This document shows positions 2,358 through 47,652 of a stretch of 64,000 nt of DNA, piece after piece (within the stretch, counting starts at the first letter, position 1; each line of letters begins with the position of its first letter). Origin of the DNA: Flavisolibacter ginsenosidimutans (lineage in GTDB: Bacteria; Bacteroidota; Bacteroidia; Chitinophagales; Chitinophagaceae); contig NZ_CP042433.1 in assembly GCF_007970805.1 (NCBI RefSeq), positions 2,170,001 to 2,234,000 of the forward strand, written 5' to 3'. A program made the position numbers and the translations under genes. The notes below the pieces were generated by a model. That model did no database searches and was not told the DNA's origin. It was given only the letters and a program-made list of their open reading frames with translations.

Positions 2358-3130
2358 ACAGCAACCTTCAAAAGAAGCTTTTCCATTTTGAAGCGCCACC
2401 GCCAAAAAAAACCTGGGAGAAAATTGCTGAAGCACTGAACGAAGAAATGTCGTTTGCGCAGCGCCTGTACCGTTACGAAGAAACACCTCCCTTCGCAAGT
2501 TGGAAGGTTATTGAATCCTCCTTGCAGGAGCCGCAAACAACGGCAAAAGTTGTTCCGTTCATCACCCGTTACAAAGCACCGCTTCGCTACATCGCCGCGG
2601 CAAGCATGATTGCCGTGACGCTGGTTATCGTTAACCTGAGCATTCGGCACACCGCTGCCGGATCGCTGGCAAGCACGAGCAAAAGAGAGCACCCCCTTCA
2701 GCAGGCTTTGCAAAAAAAGAACGACCAGAAATTTTCGGACACACCCGAAACAACCGGACCACTTACCGCTGTCGCGCCGCGCATAAACGCAGGGAATCAC
2801 AAAGGCGATTTTATCGCCCCCAAAAGAACCCTTGCCTATATACAGCCGCAAACTATTTTCCCGGTATTGTCGCTGCGCAAAACCTTTATACCAAAACAGG
2901 TAAAAGAAAAAACATTCTTCGACCAATCTTCGGCCGATGATTTCATGGTGTACAGCGATGGGGACGGCGACGTTATGAAACTGTCCAAAAAATTGTTCAG
3001 CCTTGTTTGCTGCAAAGACGGCGACGGCAGTTGCAAGACGCGTCTCCAACGGCTTCGGCAAACACTTTCGGCAAGTGTGGCCTCTGCAGATTTTGTCGGC
3101 ATGATTGATATGCTGCGCCAGTTGCAATGA
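2354..3130 (+). CDS. Single-pass membrane protein, probable anti-sigma factor
   Basis: 258 residues. The cytosolic N-terminal 75 residues hold two copies of a short motif (EAPPPKKTWEKIAEAL and EETPPFASWKVIESSL), followed by one membrane segment at about 79-97 (AAASMIAVTLVIVNLSI). The remaining ~160 residues would be periplasmic. They are rich in Lys/Thr/Pro, with a Cys pair (LVCCKDGDGSC) near the C-terminus. Overlap with the ECF sigma gene and this topology point to an anti-sigma factor or regulator of that sigma. There is no clear zinc-binding anti-sigma signature, so the role is inferred from context. Confidence 0.7.
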   Translation: MNSNLQKKLFHFEAPPPKKTWEKIAEALNEEMSFAQRLYRYEETPPFASWKVIESSLQEPQTTAKVVPFITRYKAPLRYIAAASMIAVTLVIVNLSIRHTAAGSLASTSKREHPLQQALQKKNDQKFSDTPETTGPLTAVAPRINAGNHKGDFIAPKRTLAYIQPQTIFPVLSLRKTFIPKQVKEKTFFDQSSADDFMVYSDGDGDVMKLSKKLFSLVCCKDGDGSCKTRLQRLRQTLSASVASADFVGMIDMLRQLQ

Positions 3131-3256
3131 AGCTGGAAGTTGGAGGTTGGGCGTTTCGTGTTACGTGTGATCGCCTTTCGCTTCTTATCACTCAAACATA
3201 TAATTGCTGCGTTCGTGTATTCAGCGAATAAACTTCCAACCTCCAACATCCAGCTT
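3130..3256. repeat. Inverted word repeat, 21-bp arms, 85-bp loop
   Basis: Arms at 3130-3150 and 3236-3256 are complementary at 20 of 21 positions. The left arm begins on the last base of the anti-sigma TGA stop codon. The word is made of GGAAGTTGGAGGTTGG-type units. The loop contains no good ORF. Same class as the repeats at 14846, 31524, 38463 and others in this window. Confidence 0.85.
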
Positions 3257-11850: not shown

Positions 11851-13140
11851 ATGAAACATTTGCCCCTCAACCCGGAAATTTTTGTTACTAACCGCAAGCG
11901 CTTTGTTGAAAAGATGAAGCCGGCCAGCATTGCCATTTTTGTGAGCAACGACGAAGTACCGCGCAACGGCGATGCCATTTATACGTTTCAGCAAAACAGC
12001 GACCTGTATTGGCTTAGCGGCATTGAGCAGGAAGACAGCATGGTGATATTGTTTCCCGACAATCCCGATAAAAAATATCGCGAAGTATTGGTGCTCGTTC
12101 GCCCGAACGAGTTAAAAGAAAAATGGGACGGCAAGCGCCTGCGCAAAGAAGAAGCAACCGCCATCAGCGGCATCGAAACCATTGTGTGGTTAGACAGTTT
12201 AGATGGTTTGTTGCAACCCTGGATTCATTTAGCAGACAATGTTTTTTTAGACTCAAACGAGAACGACCGTAAGGCCAACCTGCTTCGTTCACGTGATTAC
12301 CGTTTCATTGATGAAATGAAATCACGGTATCCTTTGCATCAATACGAACGTGCGGCGAGGGTTATGAAGGAATTGCGGGCCATTAAAACGCCACTGGAAA
12401 TTGAGGTCGTAAAAAAAGCCGTTGCCGTTACGGGAAAAACTTTTGAACGGGTAATGAAGTTTATGAAACCCGGCGTAATGGAATACGAAATCGAAGCGGA
12501 GATCGTCCATTCATTTCTCAGCCAAAGAGCCAGCGGCGAAGCATACGGCAGCATCATTGCCAGCGGCGACAGGGCAAGAACGCTGCATTACGTTTCTAAT
12601 AACCAGGAATGCAAAGACGGCGAATTGGTGCTGATGGATTTTGGCGCCTTGTACGGCGGTTATGCGGCCGATTTAACGCGAACCATTCCGGTGAACGGCA
12701 AGTTTACCCCGCGACAAAAAGAGGTTTACAATGCTTGCTTGCATTTGCACAACTACGCAAAGAGTTTGCTGAAGCCAGGAATATCCATTGTTGATTACAC
12801 TGAAAAAGTTGGCGACGAGGCCACGGTACAATTCATGAAGATTGGCTTGCTGAAAGAAGAAGATTTTAAAAACGAGGACCCCGACAACCGAGCTTACCGT
12901 AAGTATTTGTATCACGGCATCTCACATCATTTGGGAATAGACGTTCACGATCTAGGTACTCGAACCGAACCCATTCAAGCGGGCATGTTGTTCACCGTTG
13001 AACCCGGCATTTATATTCAGGAAGAAGGCATGGGCATCCGCATCGAAAACAACGTGTGGATCACCGAAAATGGCAACGTTGATTTGTTTGAAGGCATCCC
13101 AATAACGGTGGAGGAAATTGAAGCGGTTATGACAAGGTAG
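11851..13140 (+). CDS. pepP: Xaa-Pro aminopeptidase (M24B)
   Basis: 429 residues. The N-terminal creatinase-like domain (1-170) is followed by the pita-bread catalytic domain. Dinuclear metal ligands are visible: Asp in LMDFGALYGG and in YAADLTRTI, His in GISHHLGIDVHD, Glu in FTVEPGIYIQ and Glu in GIRIENNVWI. It removes N-terminal residues preceding proline. No signal peptide, so cytosolic. The gene is divergent from pckA, with 133 bp between them. Its TAG stop is directly followed by the left arm of the inverted repeat around the next gene. Confidence 0.95.
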   Translation: MKHLPLNPEIFVTNRKRFVEKMKPASIAIFVSNDEVPRNGDAIYTFQQNSDLYWLSGIEQEDSMVILFPDNPDKKYREVLVLVRPNELKEKWDGKRLRKEEATAISGIETIVWLDSLDGLLQPWIHLADNVFLDSNENDRKANLLRSRDYRFIDEMKSRYPLHQYERAARVMKELRAIKTPLEIEVVKKAVAVTGKTFERVMKFMKPGVMEYEIEAEIVHSFLSQRASGEAYGSIIASGDRARTLHYVSNNQECKDGELVLMDFGALYGGYAADLTRTIPVNGKFTPRQKEVYNACLHLHNYAKSLLKPGISIVDYTEKVGDEATVQFMKIGLLKEEDFKNEDPDNRAYRKYLYHGISHHLGIDVHDLGTRTEPIQAGMLFTVEPGIYIQEEGMGIRIENNVWITENGNVDLFEGIPITVEEIEAVMTR

Positions 13141-13166
13141 TCCACAGACAACGGACAACGGTCCAC
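13140..13166 (+). repeat. Left terminal inverted repeat of the four-helix-bundle element
   Basis: Begins on the last base of the pepP stop codon. Complementary at 23 of 27 positions to 13638-13664. The internal word is GTCCAC..CAACGGA..GGTCCAC. Confidence 0.85.
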
Positions 13167-13273
13167 AGGCGGGCATGCAAATTTTGACTGTTTGCCATTT
13201 GAAATCCAAAATGAAATAACCATCATGAATGACCATCTGCCGACCGTCGTCAGTTGACCATAAACCAAAACCA

Positions 13274-13627
13274 ATGCCTTTCAAGTTTGAACAACTACAA
13301 GTTTGGAAATCAGCAATTGAATTAAGCGGAAGAGTTCATGAAATATGTAAACGCTTTCCCAAGGATGAACTTTTTATCCTGACAAGCCAAATAAAGCGAG
13401 CTTCCGATTCAGTTTCATTAAACATTGCAGAGGGTTCCACAGGTCAGTCAAACGATGAATTCAACCGCTTTCTCGGTTATGCGTTGCGCTCGGCCATTGA
13501 GGTTGTCAGTTGCCTGTATTTAGCGTTAAACCGAAAGTATATTTCTACAGACGAATTCAAAGAACTTTACGATTTCATAGATTCGCTCTGCAGAAAAATT
13601 CAAGCTTTACGAAACTCTCTAAAATAA
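13274..13627 (+). CDS. Four-helix-bundle protein (S23 / intervening-sequence protein family)
   Basis: 117 residues. The N-terminus FKFEQLQVWKSAIELS, the central SQIKRASDSVSLNIAEGS and FNRFLGYALRSAIEV are the signature of the S23-type four-helix-bundle family. This family was first found encoded in intervening sequences of 23S rRNA and is related to the Avd accessory protein of diversity-generating retroelements. Its biochemical role is unsettled; nucleic-acid binding is likely. The frame opens at 13229, but that part is word-repeat sequence, so ATG 13274 was chosen. The gene sits between 27-bp inverted repeats, in the short gap between pepP and pssA. Confidence 0.92.
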   Translation: MPFKFEQLQVWKSAIELSGRVHEICKRFPKDELFILTSQIKRASDSVSLNIAEGSTGQSNDEFNRFLGYALRSAIEVVSCLYLALNRKYISTDEFKELYDFIDSLCRKIQALRNSLK

Positions 13628-13637
13628 ACGCTCGTCA

Positions 13638-13664
13638 GTGGACCATTATCCGTTGACCGTGGAC
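13638..13664 (-). repeat. Right terminal inverted repeat of the four-helix-bundle element
   Basis: Partner of 13140-13166 (23/27 complementary). It ends 6 bp before the pssA ATG. The element spans 525 bp including both arms. Confidence 0.85.
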
Positions 13665-13670
13665 TAAATC

Positions 13671-14504
13671 ATGAAACAAATTCCAAACCTTTTTACACTT
13701 CTCAATTTGTTTTTTGGCTGCATTGCCATTGTTTACATCATGCAGGTGGACAGCGGCATTGTTGCATTAAACGATGCCGGCGCTGCCGAAGTGGTGTTCC
13801 CCGAAAAAATGGCTCTCGGTGCCTTGTTTATCTTTTTCGCGGCAGCGGTTGATTTTTTCGACGGTTTTTTTGCCCGCATGTTAAAAGCCTCTACCGACAA
13901 GGGAAAACAACTTGACTCGCTGAGCGACGTGGTGAGCTTTGGCGTCGCGCCGGGAATGATTCTTTACCAATTGTTGCGATTGGGTTATGCGCAAAAGGAA
14001 GATGCTTTATCAACTTCCTTTGCTTTGCTGCTGCCAGCTTTTCTATTCTCCTGTGCCGTTGCCTGGCGGCTGGCAAAGTTTAACGTGAGCACCAACCAAT
14101 CGGACAGTTTTAAAGGCGTTCCCTCTCCTGCTGCGGGTTTGGTGGTAGCCTCCTTTCCGCTCATCATTTGGTACGCCGATACAAACCCTTTGAGTTGGAA
14201 AGCAAGCCTGCACGTACCACAACTATTGATTAACGTTTGGTTGTTGTATGCCGTCATCATTCTTCTTAGTTATTTGATGACCTGTAACCGCACTTTTATC
14301 GCCATCAAGTTCAAAGACTATTCGCTGAAAAACAATTTGCTCAAATACATCCTAATTGCCCTCTCGCTTATTTGCCTCGTGGCTTTGCAATGGTTGGCTA
14401 TTCCGATCGTCTTCGTTCTGTATTTGATCTTTTCCGCTTTTTCAAAGGAGCCCTCCGCGTTGGCTAAAGGCAACAATAACAAAACCGTTGACGTAACGGT
14501 ATAA
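13671..14504 (+). CDS. pssA: CDP-diacylglycerol-serine O-phosphatidyltransferase
   Basis: 277 residues, an integral membrane protein with about seven hydrophobic segments. The CDP-alcohol phosphotransferase motif DG-x2-AR-x8-G-x3-D-x3-D is intact (DGFFAR, then GKQLDSLSD, about 63-85). It makes phosphatidylserine from CDP-diacylglycerol and serine, the precursor of phosphatidylethanolamine. The N-terminus KQIPNLFTLLNLFFGCIAI is typical of the PssA subfamily. ATG 13671 lies 6 bp after the repeat arm. Confidence 0.92.
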   Translation: MKQIPNLFTLLNLFFGCIAIVYIMQVDSGIVALNDAGAAEVVFPEKMALGALFIFFAAAVDFFDGFFARMLKASTDKGKQLDSLSDVVSFGVAPGMILYQLLRLGYAQKEDALSTSFALLLPAFLFSCAVAWRLAKFNVSTNQSDSFKGVPSPAAGLVVASFPLIIWYADTNPLSWKASLHVPQLLINVWLLYAVIILLSYLMTCNRTFIAIKFKDYSLKNNLLKYILIALSLICLVALQWLAIPIVFVLYLIFSAFSKEPSALAKGNNNKTVDVTV

Positions 14505-14845: not shown

Positions 14846-14910
14846 GGTTGATTGGTTGATTGGTTTTTGACAACTACTGGTCAACCACTCAACAAATCAA
14901 CCAATCAACC
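14846..14910. repeat. Inverted word repeat, perfect 16-bp arms
   Basis: Arms 14846-14861 (ggttgattggttgatt) and 14895-14910 pair perfectly over a 33-nt loop. The right arm ends 5 bp before the rsmI ATG, so the hairpin would cover the ribosome-binding region. The same word occurs in the ftsQ-murC gap at 31524. Confidence 0.9.
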
Positions 14911-14915
14911 AGCAC

Positions 14916-15581
14916 ATGCTCTACCTTGTTCCCACTCCCATCGGCAACTTAAAAGACATTACGCTTCGTGCTTTAGAGGTATTGCAGCAGGTAGATGTTA
15001 TTCTTGCCGAGGACACAAGAACAACCTCAAAGCTGTTGAACCACTATCAAATTCAAAAGCCGCTCACGCCTTATCACCAGCACAACGAACACAAAATTCT
15101 TCAGCATTTAATTGACCAGTTAACAACCGGCAAAGTCATGGCCGTTGTAACAGATGCGGGAACGCCTGGCATTTCTGATCCCGCTTTTTTATTGGTGCGG
15201 GAGTGCATTAAAAACAATATCAAGGTAGAAAGTCTGCCCGGCGCAACGGCCTTTGTTCCGGCGCTTATCAACAGCGGTCTCACCACGAACCGTTTTTGCT
15301 TTGAAGGTTTTCTTCCGCTGAAAAAAGGGCGGCACACTTTACTCACACAATTAAGCAACGAAGAACGCACCCTTATTTTTTATGAATCGCCCATGCGCTT
15401 GATAAAAACATTGGAAGATTTCATTCAATATTTTGGCGCCGAACGCCAATGCTGTGTGAGCCGCGAGCTTACAAAAATGTTTGAAGAAAACGCAAGAGGC
15501 ACGTTGCAGGAAGTGCACGATTACTTCGGACAAAAAACCGTAAAAGGCGAGATTGTGATTGTTGTCGAAGGCAAAGAATAA
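14916..15581 (+). CDS. rsmI: 16S rRNA 2'-O-ribose C1402 methyltransferase
   Basis: 221 residues, SAM-dependent tetrapyrrole-methylase fold. Motifs: LYLVPTPIGNLKDITLRAL at the N-terminus, ILAEDTRTTSKLL, VVTDAGTPGISDPA (SAM loop), LPGATAFVPALINSGL and FEGFLP. It is shorter than the E. coli enzyme at the C-terminus. It methylates C1402 of 16S rRNA in the decoding centre. The stop codon TAA lies in the left arm of another word repeat (15577-15586). Confidence 0.93.
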   Translation: MLYLVPTPIGNLKDITLRALEVLQQVDVILAEDTRTTSKLLNHYQIQKPLTPYHQHNEHKILQHLIDQLTTGKVMAVVTDAGTPGISDPAFLLVRECIKNNIKVESLPGATAFVPALINSGLTTNRFCFEGFLPLKKGRHTLLTQLSNEERTLIFYESPMRLIKTLEDFIQYFGAERQCCVSRELTKMFEENARGTLQEVHDYFGQKTVKGEIVIVVEGKE

Positions 15582-15650
15582 GTTGACCCTGGCAATGAAA
15601 TTTGCTTTGTTTCCGCAGCCTCCAATAACTTATCAACCAATCAACTTATT
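15577..15650. repeat. Inverted word repeat spanning the rsmI stop codon
   Basis: aataagttga at 15577-15586 pairs perfectly with tcaacttatt at 15641-15650. The left arm contains the TAA stop of rsmI. More TTATCAACCAATCAACTTATT-like words lie beside the right arm. Confidence 0.65.
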
Positions 15651-15671
15651 AACTTAATCCCTATCTTCACA

Positions 15672-28652: not shown

Positions 28653-28724
28653 AATTATGAGTTATGAGTTAGAAATTATGAGTTGGTTTCAACATTCATA
28701 ATTCATCATTCTAAACTCATAATT
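28653..28724. repeat. Inverted word repeat between ftsA and ftsZ
   Basis: aattatgagtt at 28653-28663 (repeated at 28675) pairs perfectly with aactcataatt at 28714-28724. The right arm ends 2 bp from the ftsA stop codon. Words of the ATTATGAGTT type fill the rest. Confidence 0.85.
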
Positions 28725-31523: not shown

Positions 31524-31601
31524 GTTGATTGGTTGATAAGTTGACAGGTGCTTGGCTGCGTCAACGTACTTTTCAACGAATCAACTTATCAACCAATCAA
31601 C
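31524..31601. repeat. Perfect 21-bp inverted word repeat overlapping the murC stop
   Basis: Arms 31524-31544 and 31581-31601 match at all 21 positions over a 36-nt loop. The right arm includes the last codons of murC and its TGA stop (31589-31591). The word gttgattggttgat is shared with the repeat before rsmI at 14846. Confidence 0.95.
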
Positions 31602-47536: not shown

Positions 47537-47572
47537 AAATTTTAGACCTTCGACGTCCTTTATTGTTTACCC

Positions 47573-47652
47573 GTTCACTTGTTCACTTGTTGGTGGACGA
47601 ATGTAACGGTTTGCGTAAACAGGTAAACAAGTGAACAGCCAAACAAGTGAAC
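47573..47652. repeat. Inverted word repeat with doubled arms before the exonuclease gene
   Basis: gttcacttgtt occurs twice (47573 and 47581). Its complement aacaagtgaac occurs twice on the other side (47626 and 47642). The last copy ends 6 bp before the ATG at 47659. A hairpin here would cover the ribosome-binding region. Confidence 0.85.

Follow-up and report, generated by a model that had tools for sequence, protein, structure and literature searches.

Intervening sequences (IVSs) in the 23S rRNA genes of Coxiella and Leptospira carry an open reading frame (ORF) for the protein S23p between inverted arms that are able to form a long stem, and they are patchily distributed at fixed sites. 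A unit of similar layout resides in a 64,000-nucleotide stretch of the Flavisolibacter ginsenosidimutans genome (contig NZ_CP042433.1, positions 2,170,001 to 2,234,000; hereafter, the window), where it lies at window positions 13138-13666 between the protein genes pepP and pssA. It belongs to a large family of small elements in which a gene for an S23-type, or 23S rRNA-intervening-sequence, protein (IVP) is enclosed by two inverted arrays built of 7-8 nt words. Some of the genomes also contain, at other locations, ORF-less elements with words of this kind. With moderate confidence, we regard these as DNA-level elements whose Avd-fold, pentamer-type protein would recognise its own words, and which have been resident for long periods and may sometimes have been moved or exchanged.

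Like rRNA IVSs, the unit has a PF05635-type ORF between terminal inverted repeats that can pair around it, and the family is patchy at fixed sites. Unlike them, the unit is not inside a 23S rRNA gene, its tandem words are specific to a subfamily, it has ORF-less relatives, and the word elements show no sign of RNA-level pairing constraint. A second system for comparison is formed by repetitive extragenic palindromic (REP) doublets forming hairpins and REP-associated tyrosine transposases (REPIN-RAYT), in which, according to parts of PMC3116915, small intergenic hairpins form several groups per genome, each beside its own protein gene. The word elements share this organisation, and REPIN-type and IVP word systems coexist in several related genomes. 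IVP, however, is an Avd-fold ring protein and not a Y1 transposase, the repeats are tandem words and not GC-rich palindromes, and no Y1/HUH transposase lies within the unit, Y1 genes being located elsewhere. Gene-bearing and ORF-less units with common terminal repeats are also known from miniature inverted-repeat transposable elements and insertion sequences, but here there is no transposase match, no target duplication was established, and the arms are internally repetitive. We file the unit as an IVS-kind variant working like REPIN-RAYT, which is outside the rRNA IVSs by its location and outside REPIN-RAYT by its protein. In the open-licence PubMed Central literature that we searched, we found no account of word arrays flanking S23/IVP genes that lie outside rRNA.

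The unit and its two neighbours comprise the following features.

13138-13174, + strand: left arm, tandem 7-nt words GTCCACA GACAACG GACAACG GTCCACA, pepP stop codon included (inverted-repeat search, shuffles)
13630-13666, + strand: right arm, the inverted copy of the left arm (inverted-repeat search, shuffles)
13247-13266, + strand: a further, incomplete copy of the right arm (85% identity), located after the left arm and ahead of the ORF (repeat search)
13274-13627, + strand: S23/IVP gene, 117 amino acids, Avd-type four-helix fold (ORF, profile, model)
11851-13140, + strand: pepP (Xaa-Pro aminopeptidase, M24 peptidase), upstream host gene (ORF, profile searches)
13671-14504, + strand: pssA (CDP-alcohol phosphatidyltransferase), downstream host gene (ORF, profile searches)

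The arms are 37 nt each and 81% complementary, are built of the 7-nt words GTCCACA and GACAACG, and reach a score of 39 that was matched by 0 of 200 dinucleotide shuffles of the flanks (locus L004; L and G numbers are our labels for loci and genomes). The pepP stop codon, TAG at 13138-13140, falls inside the left arm. A first-pass annotation of this DNA had described arms of 27 nt (13140-13166 and 13638-13664), complementary at 23 of 27 positions and enclosing a single gene of S23 type between pepP and pssA. The complementarity is as described, and profile searches confirm the gene (PF05635, E = 1.5e-33; TIGR02436, E = 4.1e-32), for which an alternative, longer start is possible at 13229. That right arm does stop 6 bp short of the pssA ATG (13671), but the full arms extend beyond the 27 nt. 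The label of an IVS-like element outside rRNA holds for the architecture and for the existence of small relatives; the RNA-stem reading, discussed below, is not supported.

Inverted arms are common around IVP genes. Among IVP ORFs of the source genome and its relatives, 64 of 103 have arms matched by 0 of 200 shuffles, versus 2 of 159 control genes, which were other genes of the window and of the same loci (Fisher p = 5e-31). The two arm-positive controls are L014, a divergent IVP gene that escaped the IVP hidden Markov model (HMM) and hence was counted among the controls, and a window gene at 14916-15581, which lies beside ORF-less arrays. Within the source genome (G000; 5.08 Mb, 14 PF05635 rows counted as 13 genes), 9 of 13 IVP genes have arms at 0/200 within 350 bp on each side, and for the remaining genes, L009, L010, L002 and L013, shuffles were as good in 1, 11, 30 and 116 cases out of 200. 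Arms also reach the shuffle threshold in 11 of the 30 phylum-wide best IVP matches fetched and in 49 of 80 loci of the window protein's own subfamily (80 kept of 385 relatives found; L390 and L398 among the 49 repeat L017 and L018). By all three counts, S23-family genes outside rRNA with flanking inverted arms, as the architecture proposed in the first-pass annotation would predict, are common in related genomes. The domain itself, PF05635, is present in 232 of the 296 Bacteroidota genomes sampled and in 0 of 14 control genomes. One locus near a contig end with an apparent 118-nt fold-back (L026) was excluded from the arm test, L015 is the other half of the frameshifted gene of L012, and the split halves of L002 and L117 are counted within the 103 ORFs. 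Both neighbour genes are in the sense of the IVP ORF in 94 of 127 cases and antisense to it in 8 of 127, not all of which are independent, orthologous sites being included.

The word structure of the arms was analysed in the 67 elements with arms at 1/200 shuffles or better. Repeats are strongest at a lag of 7 nt for 52 of these elements, of 8 nt for 13 and of 9 nt for 2, and the median arm is 31 nt long, corresponding to ~4.4 words. G exceeds C in the 5' arm of 56 of the 67. In 48 of 49 elements the two arms are in-register copies of each other, with an identity of 0.87 versus 0.74 when shifted by one word, the former figure being biased upward because arms were picked by in-register score.

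Words and proteins vary together. Over the 67 elements, protein identity correlates with the sharing of arm 5-mers (Mantel r = 0.48, a value reached by 0 of 2000 permutations), a signal that is in part common descent because word and gene are linked in cis. The window subfamily divides into loci with a 7-nt word (33 of 80), loci with an 8-nt word (19 of 80) and others that are unclassed, and the two word classes require a single change on the subfamily protein tree (support 99/98), versus a mean of 15.8 changes when shuffled. GTC-type words are found in Bacteroidota and also at loci labelled Omnitrophota, Schekmanbacteria and Nitrospirota (Thermodesulfovibrionales), which are contigs of metagenome-assembled genomes, some of them under 7 kb and as short as 4-6 kb, a few of whose labels may be binning errors. 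Across such distances neutral spacer DNA should be unrecognisable, and the retention of GTC words goes beyond common descent, as do the joint changes of word and protein at single sites and the fit of ORF-less arrays to arms of their own genome, both described below.

Two sites allow words to be compared at a constant location. At a site in genus g54, 22 of 32 loci have word class T and 10 have class A (L227, without countable words, is placed in class T by default), and 12 protein columns separate the two classes at a majority above 80% among the 30 loci with an ORF. The A versus T distinction takes nine changes on the tree of flanking genes (50 loci), which homologous recombination through the flanks could blur. 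Between aguB and aguA, 15 of 20 loci have an 8-nt word, 4 are unclassed, and one, L412, has a 7-nt word together with a protein of the 7-nt type. Protein and word have swapped together at one and the same site in both cases. Within the subfamily, the switch from 7-nt to 8-nt words is accompanied by replacement of K or R with V (window residue 107) and of Q with N (residue 110). The window protein, with its 7-nt word, has R107 and Q110, both in the last helix. These two residues are candidates for word specificity, but only as a lead, because one clade split would leave the same pattern.

ORF-less arrays with words of this kind occur at five places in the window, none of them assigned to a strand.

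3130-3256, no strand: inverted array, word GTTGGAR, no ORF; best fit is IVP gene L006 of the same genome, 34 vs 21
14846-14910, no strand: inverted array, word GGTTGATT, no ORF; like L005, foreign arm L085 fits better, 38 vs 25
28653-28724, no strand: inverted array, word TTATGAG, no ORF; like L011, foreign arm ties
31524-31601, no strand: inverted array, word GTTGATWR, no ORF; like L005, foreign arm ties
47563-47646, no strand: inverted array, word GTTCACTT, no ORF; best fit is IVP gene L007 of the same genome, 46 vs 26

An arm from the same genome is thus the best fit for two of the five, ties with a foreign arm for two and is surpassed by a foreign arm for one. A wider scan found 23 arrays in 464 kb of G000, of which 22 are without an IVP ORF, and 11 in 400 kb of G015; the window unit itself is below the periodicity cut-off of the scan and therefore is not among the 23. 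Two of the 11 G015 arrays are one short palindrome and not a word array. ORF-less arrays resemble the IVP arms of their own genome more than permuted ones, with mean best scores of 26.5 vs 18.4 in G000 (0 of 2000 permutations as high) and 19.5 vs 14.9 in G015 (3 of 2000). Dispersed ORF-less units carrying the repeat of a coding unit, a feature of REPIN-RAYT, are therefore found by score, and by count in G000 only. The IVP-free genomes G185, G060 and G062 have 0 arrays in 400 kb, and G034, which was rated IVP-free by a search with the window protein only, has 1 in 400 kb. The first-pass annotation regarded the ORF-less repeats of the window as non-autonomous relatives of the unit. They do resemble the arms of IVP genes in the same genome, but their words are those of other IVP genes and not of the window gene, whose GTCCAC word is in none of the ORF-less arrays found in the 464 kb of G000 (list checked by eye).

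Inverted word arrays of the GTTGATTG type, at 14846-14910 and 15622-15656, bracket the window gene at 14916-15581, a host gene that does not belong to an element. In G015, L171 (9924-10484) and L160 (6443-6951) contain nested inverted arrays of several word families with no IVP match inside, and the outer arms of L171 carry the GTCCACGGTCGACAG word of the window subfamily.

Comparisons of orthologous sites bear on how these elements come and go. We fetched 29 of the 36 relatives with a pssA match, of which 6 have no pepP match. In the other 23, pepP directly precedes pssA with a spacer of 12-198 bp and no IVP gene (0 of 23), so spacers without the gene, for which the first-pass annotation had called as evidence of an empty site, exist in every fetched relative that keeps the pair. 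A gene with 60-65% identity lies exactly between pepP and pssA in four genomes, L337, L348, L399 and L408, which are labelled Chitinophagales bacterium, bacterium, Bacteroidota bacterium and Bacteroidetes bacterium, respectively. A fifth orthologue (L407) adjoins pssA close to a contig start. The unit is therefore not a fresh insertion at this site. For L337, L348, L399, L408 and L407, shuffles as good as the arms numbered 4, 2, 0, 53 and 158 of 200. Orthologues with the same neighbours and no flanking repeats had been named in the first-pass annotation as grounds for abandoning its proposal; in part they do occur, as the arms are significant in only some of the five.

Other sites are occupied repeatedly. 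In the window subfamily, 20 of 80 loci are between aguB and aguA, and 18 of 80 are between two metH-like genes. At the g54 site the element is present in 30 of 30 nearest genomes, two of which have no intact ORF (no ORF of 80 codons at 2 of 32 loci), and in 20 further genomes the IVP gene is present in 9 and absent from 11. Presence and absence change at least six times on the tree of the g54 flanks, four of these changes being forced by starred branches. The IVP ORF at this site is under purifying selection, with a median ratio of nonsynonymous to synonymous substitution rates (dN/dS) of 0.098 in class T (210 pairs) and 0.047 in class A (35 pairs). Within G000, L008 and L010 are 80% identical across 455 bp, and their homology stops within ~5 nt of the outer arm ends, which suggests that the element moved whole; the L010 site has an orthologue in G006 (L099). 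No target-site duplication was visible by eye at L008 and L010, and no closely related empty site was found. Among the 80 subfamily loci, the eight listed pairs with more than 82% identity are orthologous sites, because both flanks are shared (one is cut by a contig end). The overall picture is one of long residence with repeated replacement, rather than of frequent fresh insertion.

At three loci of relatives, the pepP-pssA or g54 spacers contain hairpins with CCCCCT or CCTCTCC arms and no 7-nt words (L051, L258, L263). Table 5 of PMC5524665 lists a 'four helix bundle protein' among phage elements in two Flavobacterium columnare strains, where the gene lies between those for guanylate kinase and nicotinate mononucleotide adenylyltransferase; this may be another IVP site.

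The AlphaFold2 model of the window protein has a predicted local distance difference test score (pLDDT) of 96.6 and matches 2gsc with a template modelling (TM) score of 0.96 and 2rld with 0.82, entries that contain five chains each. Six residues, Q39, S46, N50, E53, G54 and E76, are invariant over 37 IVP members. The model has the Avd fold found in diversity-generating retroelements (4dwl, TM 0.80; 8ub7, TM 0.78; Foldseek E 0.06 and above), but identity to Avd is 6-10%, and there is no reverse transcriptase in the IVP unit or beside the window gene, which lies between pepP and pssA (no search aimed at template repeats was made). Profile searches with the proteins of the window unit gave matches only of the PF05635/TIGR02436 type and no transposase. 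Sections of PMC4990558 describe S23p of Xanthomonas as a homopentamer and state that the function of S23p is not known.

These observations are consistent with a mechanism in which the IVP protein, a five-subunit ring in solved relatives, would recognise word arrays on DNA both in cis and in trans, and one ring may engage several words simultaneously. The two arms would be kept alike by hairpin or template-switch correction combined with word slippage, and not by RNA pairing. Such an element could ride on read-through transcription, persist for a long time in intergenic sites where it is tolerated and, from time to time, move or be exchanged between genomes through the replication, repair or recombination of the host, a route for which no detectable reverse transcriptase and no Y1 transposase would be required. 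A more far-reaching version, possible but doubtful in our view, is that the elements are selfish DNA of a new category. In this version, a non-catalytic ring would read tandem words, perhaps one per subunit in view of the median of ~4.4 words per arm and the five chains of solved relatives, and by holding both arrays would drive host repair or replication to copy arrays into spacers, while a few last-helix residues would determine the length and sequence of the word.

Several observations weigh against recognition and movement of this kind, in addition to the share of common descent in the word-protein correlation and the possible blurring of the g54 flank tree mentioned above. No arms at 1/200 or better were found for 36 of the 103 IVP ORFs, and only one of the five pepP-pssA orthologues passes this threshold (L399, with an alignment extending into pepP). 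The 11 gene-free g54 spacers hold other hairpins, one of them weak, and differ in that the entire spacer has been swapped, for which homologous recombination through the flanks could be the cause. No clean insertion junction or target duplication was found at pepP-pssA, at g54, at L008/L010 or among the pairs listed for the 80 subfamily loci, and nowhere did we find a base-precise insertion at a site free of hairpins. On a simple count, only 9 of the 22 ORF-less arrays in G000 fit an arm of their own genome above every foreign arm (7 of 2000 permutations gave as many), and the 1 of 11 in G015 is no better than permuted. Arrays do not simply track IVP number, because only 3 arrays in 400 kb came from five additional IVP-rich genomes. 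When words were counted in 30 g54 genomes, both were present in 30 of 30, and the difference in median A-word fraction was weak (0.378 vs 0.189, p = 0.015); several IVP paralogs per genome are taken to be the cause of the presence of both words everywhere. Finally, we know of no catalytic role or signature in the IVP protein.

Among the alternatives, an RNA-level element like the IVSs is unlikely. In this case, RNase III would cut the stem that the arms make in the mRNA and so release the IVP message from an operon transcript, and the protein family and the ORF-in-loop layout are indeed those of 23S rRNA IVSs. The arm stem is also present in the predicted RNA fold of the window unit (z = -3.93, 0 of 100 shuffles equally stable), and the ORF is mostly co-directional with its neighbours. 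According to PMC4990558, the terminal stem of the 23S IVS in Coxiella measures 28 bp, and RNase III is said to excise IVSs. RNA pairing of the coding strand should bias arm mismatches to G-U, but G-U-type versus A-C-type mismatches number 63 vs 65 over the 67 elements, 27 vs 51 at the g54 site (p = 0.009) and 47 vs 87 in the window subfamily (p = 0.0007). The last two sets lean to wobble pairs of the antisense strand. Because none of the three sets has an excess of coding-strand G-U pairs, neither the RNA-stem reading nor RNA-level upkeep of the arms is supported, and arm evolution lends no support to the first-pass suggestion that the protein binds its own stem as RNA. In addition, the words recur in ORF-less arrays, there is no rRNA context, and Rfam at its gathering score gave no match in the window and none at 20 IVP loci outside rRNA. 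We give similarly little credence to a host-useful regulator, whereby the arrays would be intercistronic hairpins involved in processing, stability or termination and IVP a post-transcriptional regulator that reads them. The long stay at fixed operon sites such as aguB-aguA and the metH-like pair, the dN/dS of 0.05-0.10 and the other hairpins often contained in gene-free spacers are what a regulator would lead one to expect. Against it, the gene is missing from all 23 fetched pepP-pssA spacers of relatives, it has been repeatedly replaced or lost at the g54 site, including the two loci without an 80-codon ORF, and words differ at one and the same site (g54 and aguB-aguA).

Highly improbable, in our estimation, is passive cargo, in which REP-type arrays would be moved in trans by a Y1 (RAYT) transposase or a reverse transcriptase and IVP genes would merely have been captured. 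Y1 transposases are found in 41 of 56 genomes, including two matches in G000, which also has two RVT_1 matches, both outside the window, and the IVP fold resembles that of a reverse transcriptase partner, Avd (TM ~0.8). However, 13 of 20 Y1 genes are flanked, at 0/200 shuffles, by repeats of another kind, which are GC-rich and palindromic (type assigned by eye; the 20 ORFs were selected mechanically, and two of them, L328 and L331, look unlike Y1 proteins). The two Y1 genes of G000 have no such flanking repeats (16 and 184 of 200 shuffles as good). As Y1-flanking repeats differ from the words, Y1 genes were rejected as owners of the word arrays. IVP-bearing genomes of at least 99% completeness lack an RVT_1 match in five cases (G006, G008, G012, G026 and G029) and a Y1 match in two (G024 and G051), so presence and absence do not support dependence on either enzyme, although a divergent enzyme could escape the HMMs. 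In related genomes, GC-rich palindromes flank six Y1 loci (L318, L322, L324, L328, L329 and L335) and form a REP-type system alongside the IVP words. We attach almost no probability to a last alternative, in which homologous recombination would swap ordinary variable intergenic hairpins, the IVP gene being a passenger that does not recognise the words. In its favour, the g54 site shows exchange of entire spacers, and several other types of short hairpin occur in the same spacers. Yet the word stays with the protein over wide distances, changes with it at one site and matches in trans.

The S23/IVP family is widespread in the phylum and has solved structures, while being a small orphan family known mainly from inserts in rRNA genes. 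If the protein does read the word in its own flanks, each member brings its own candidate ligand, and its function becomes directly testable. The elements would then account for the origin of many short intergenic repeat arrays in some of these bacteria, and would constitute a second REPIN-like system, based on a protein without a known nuclease.

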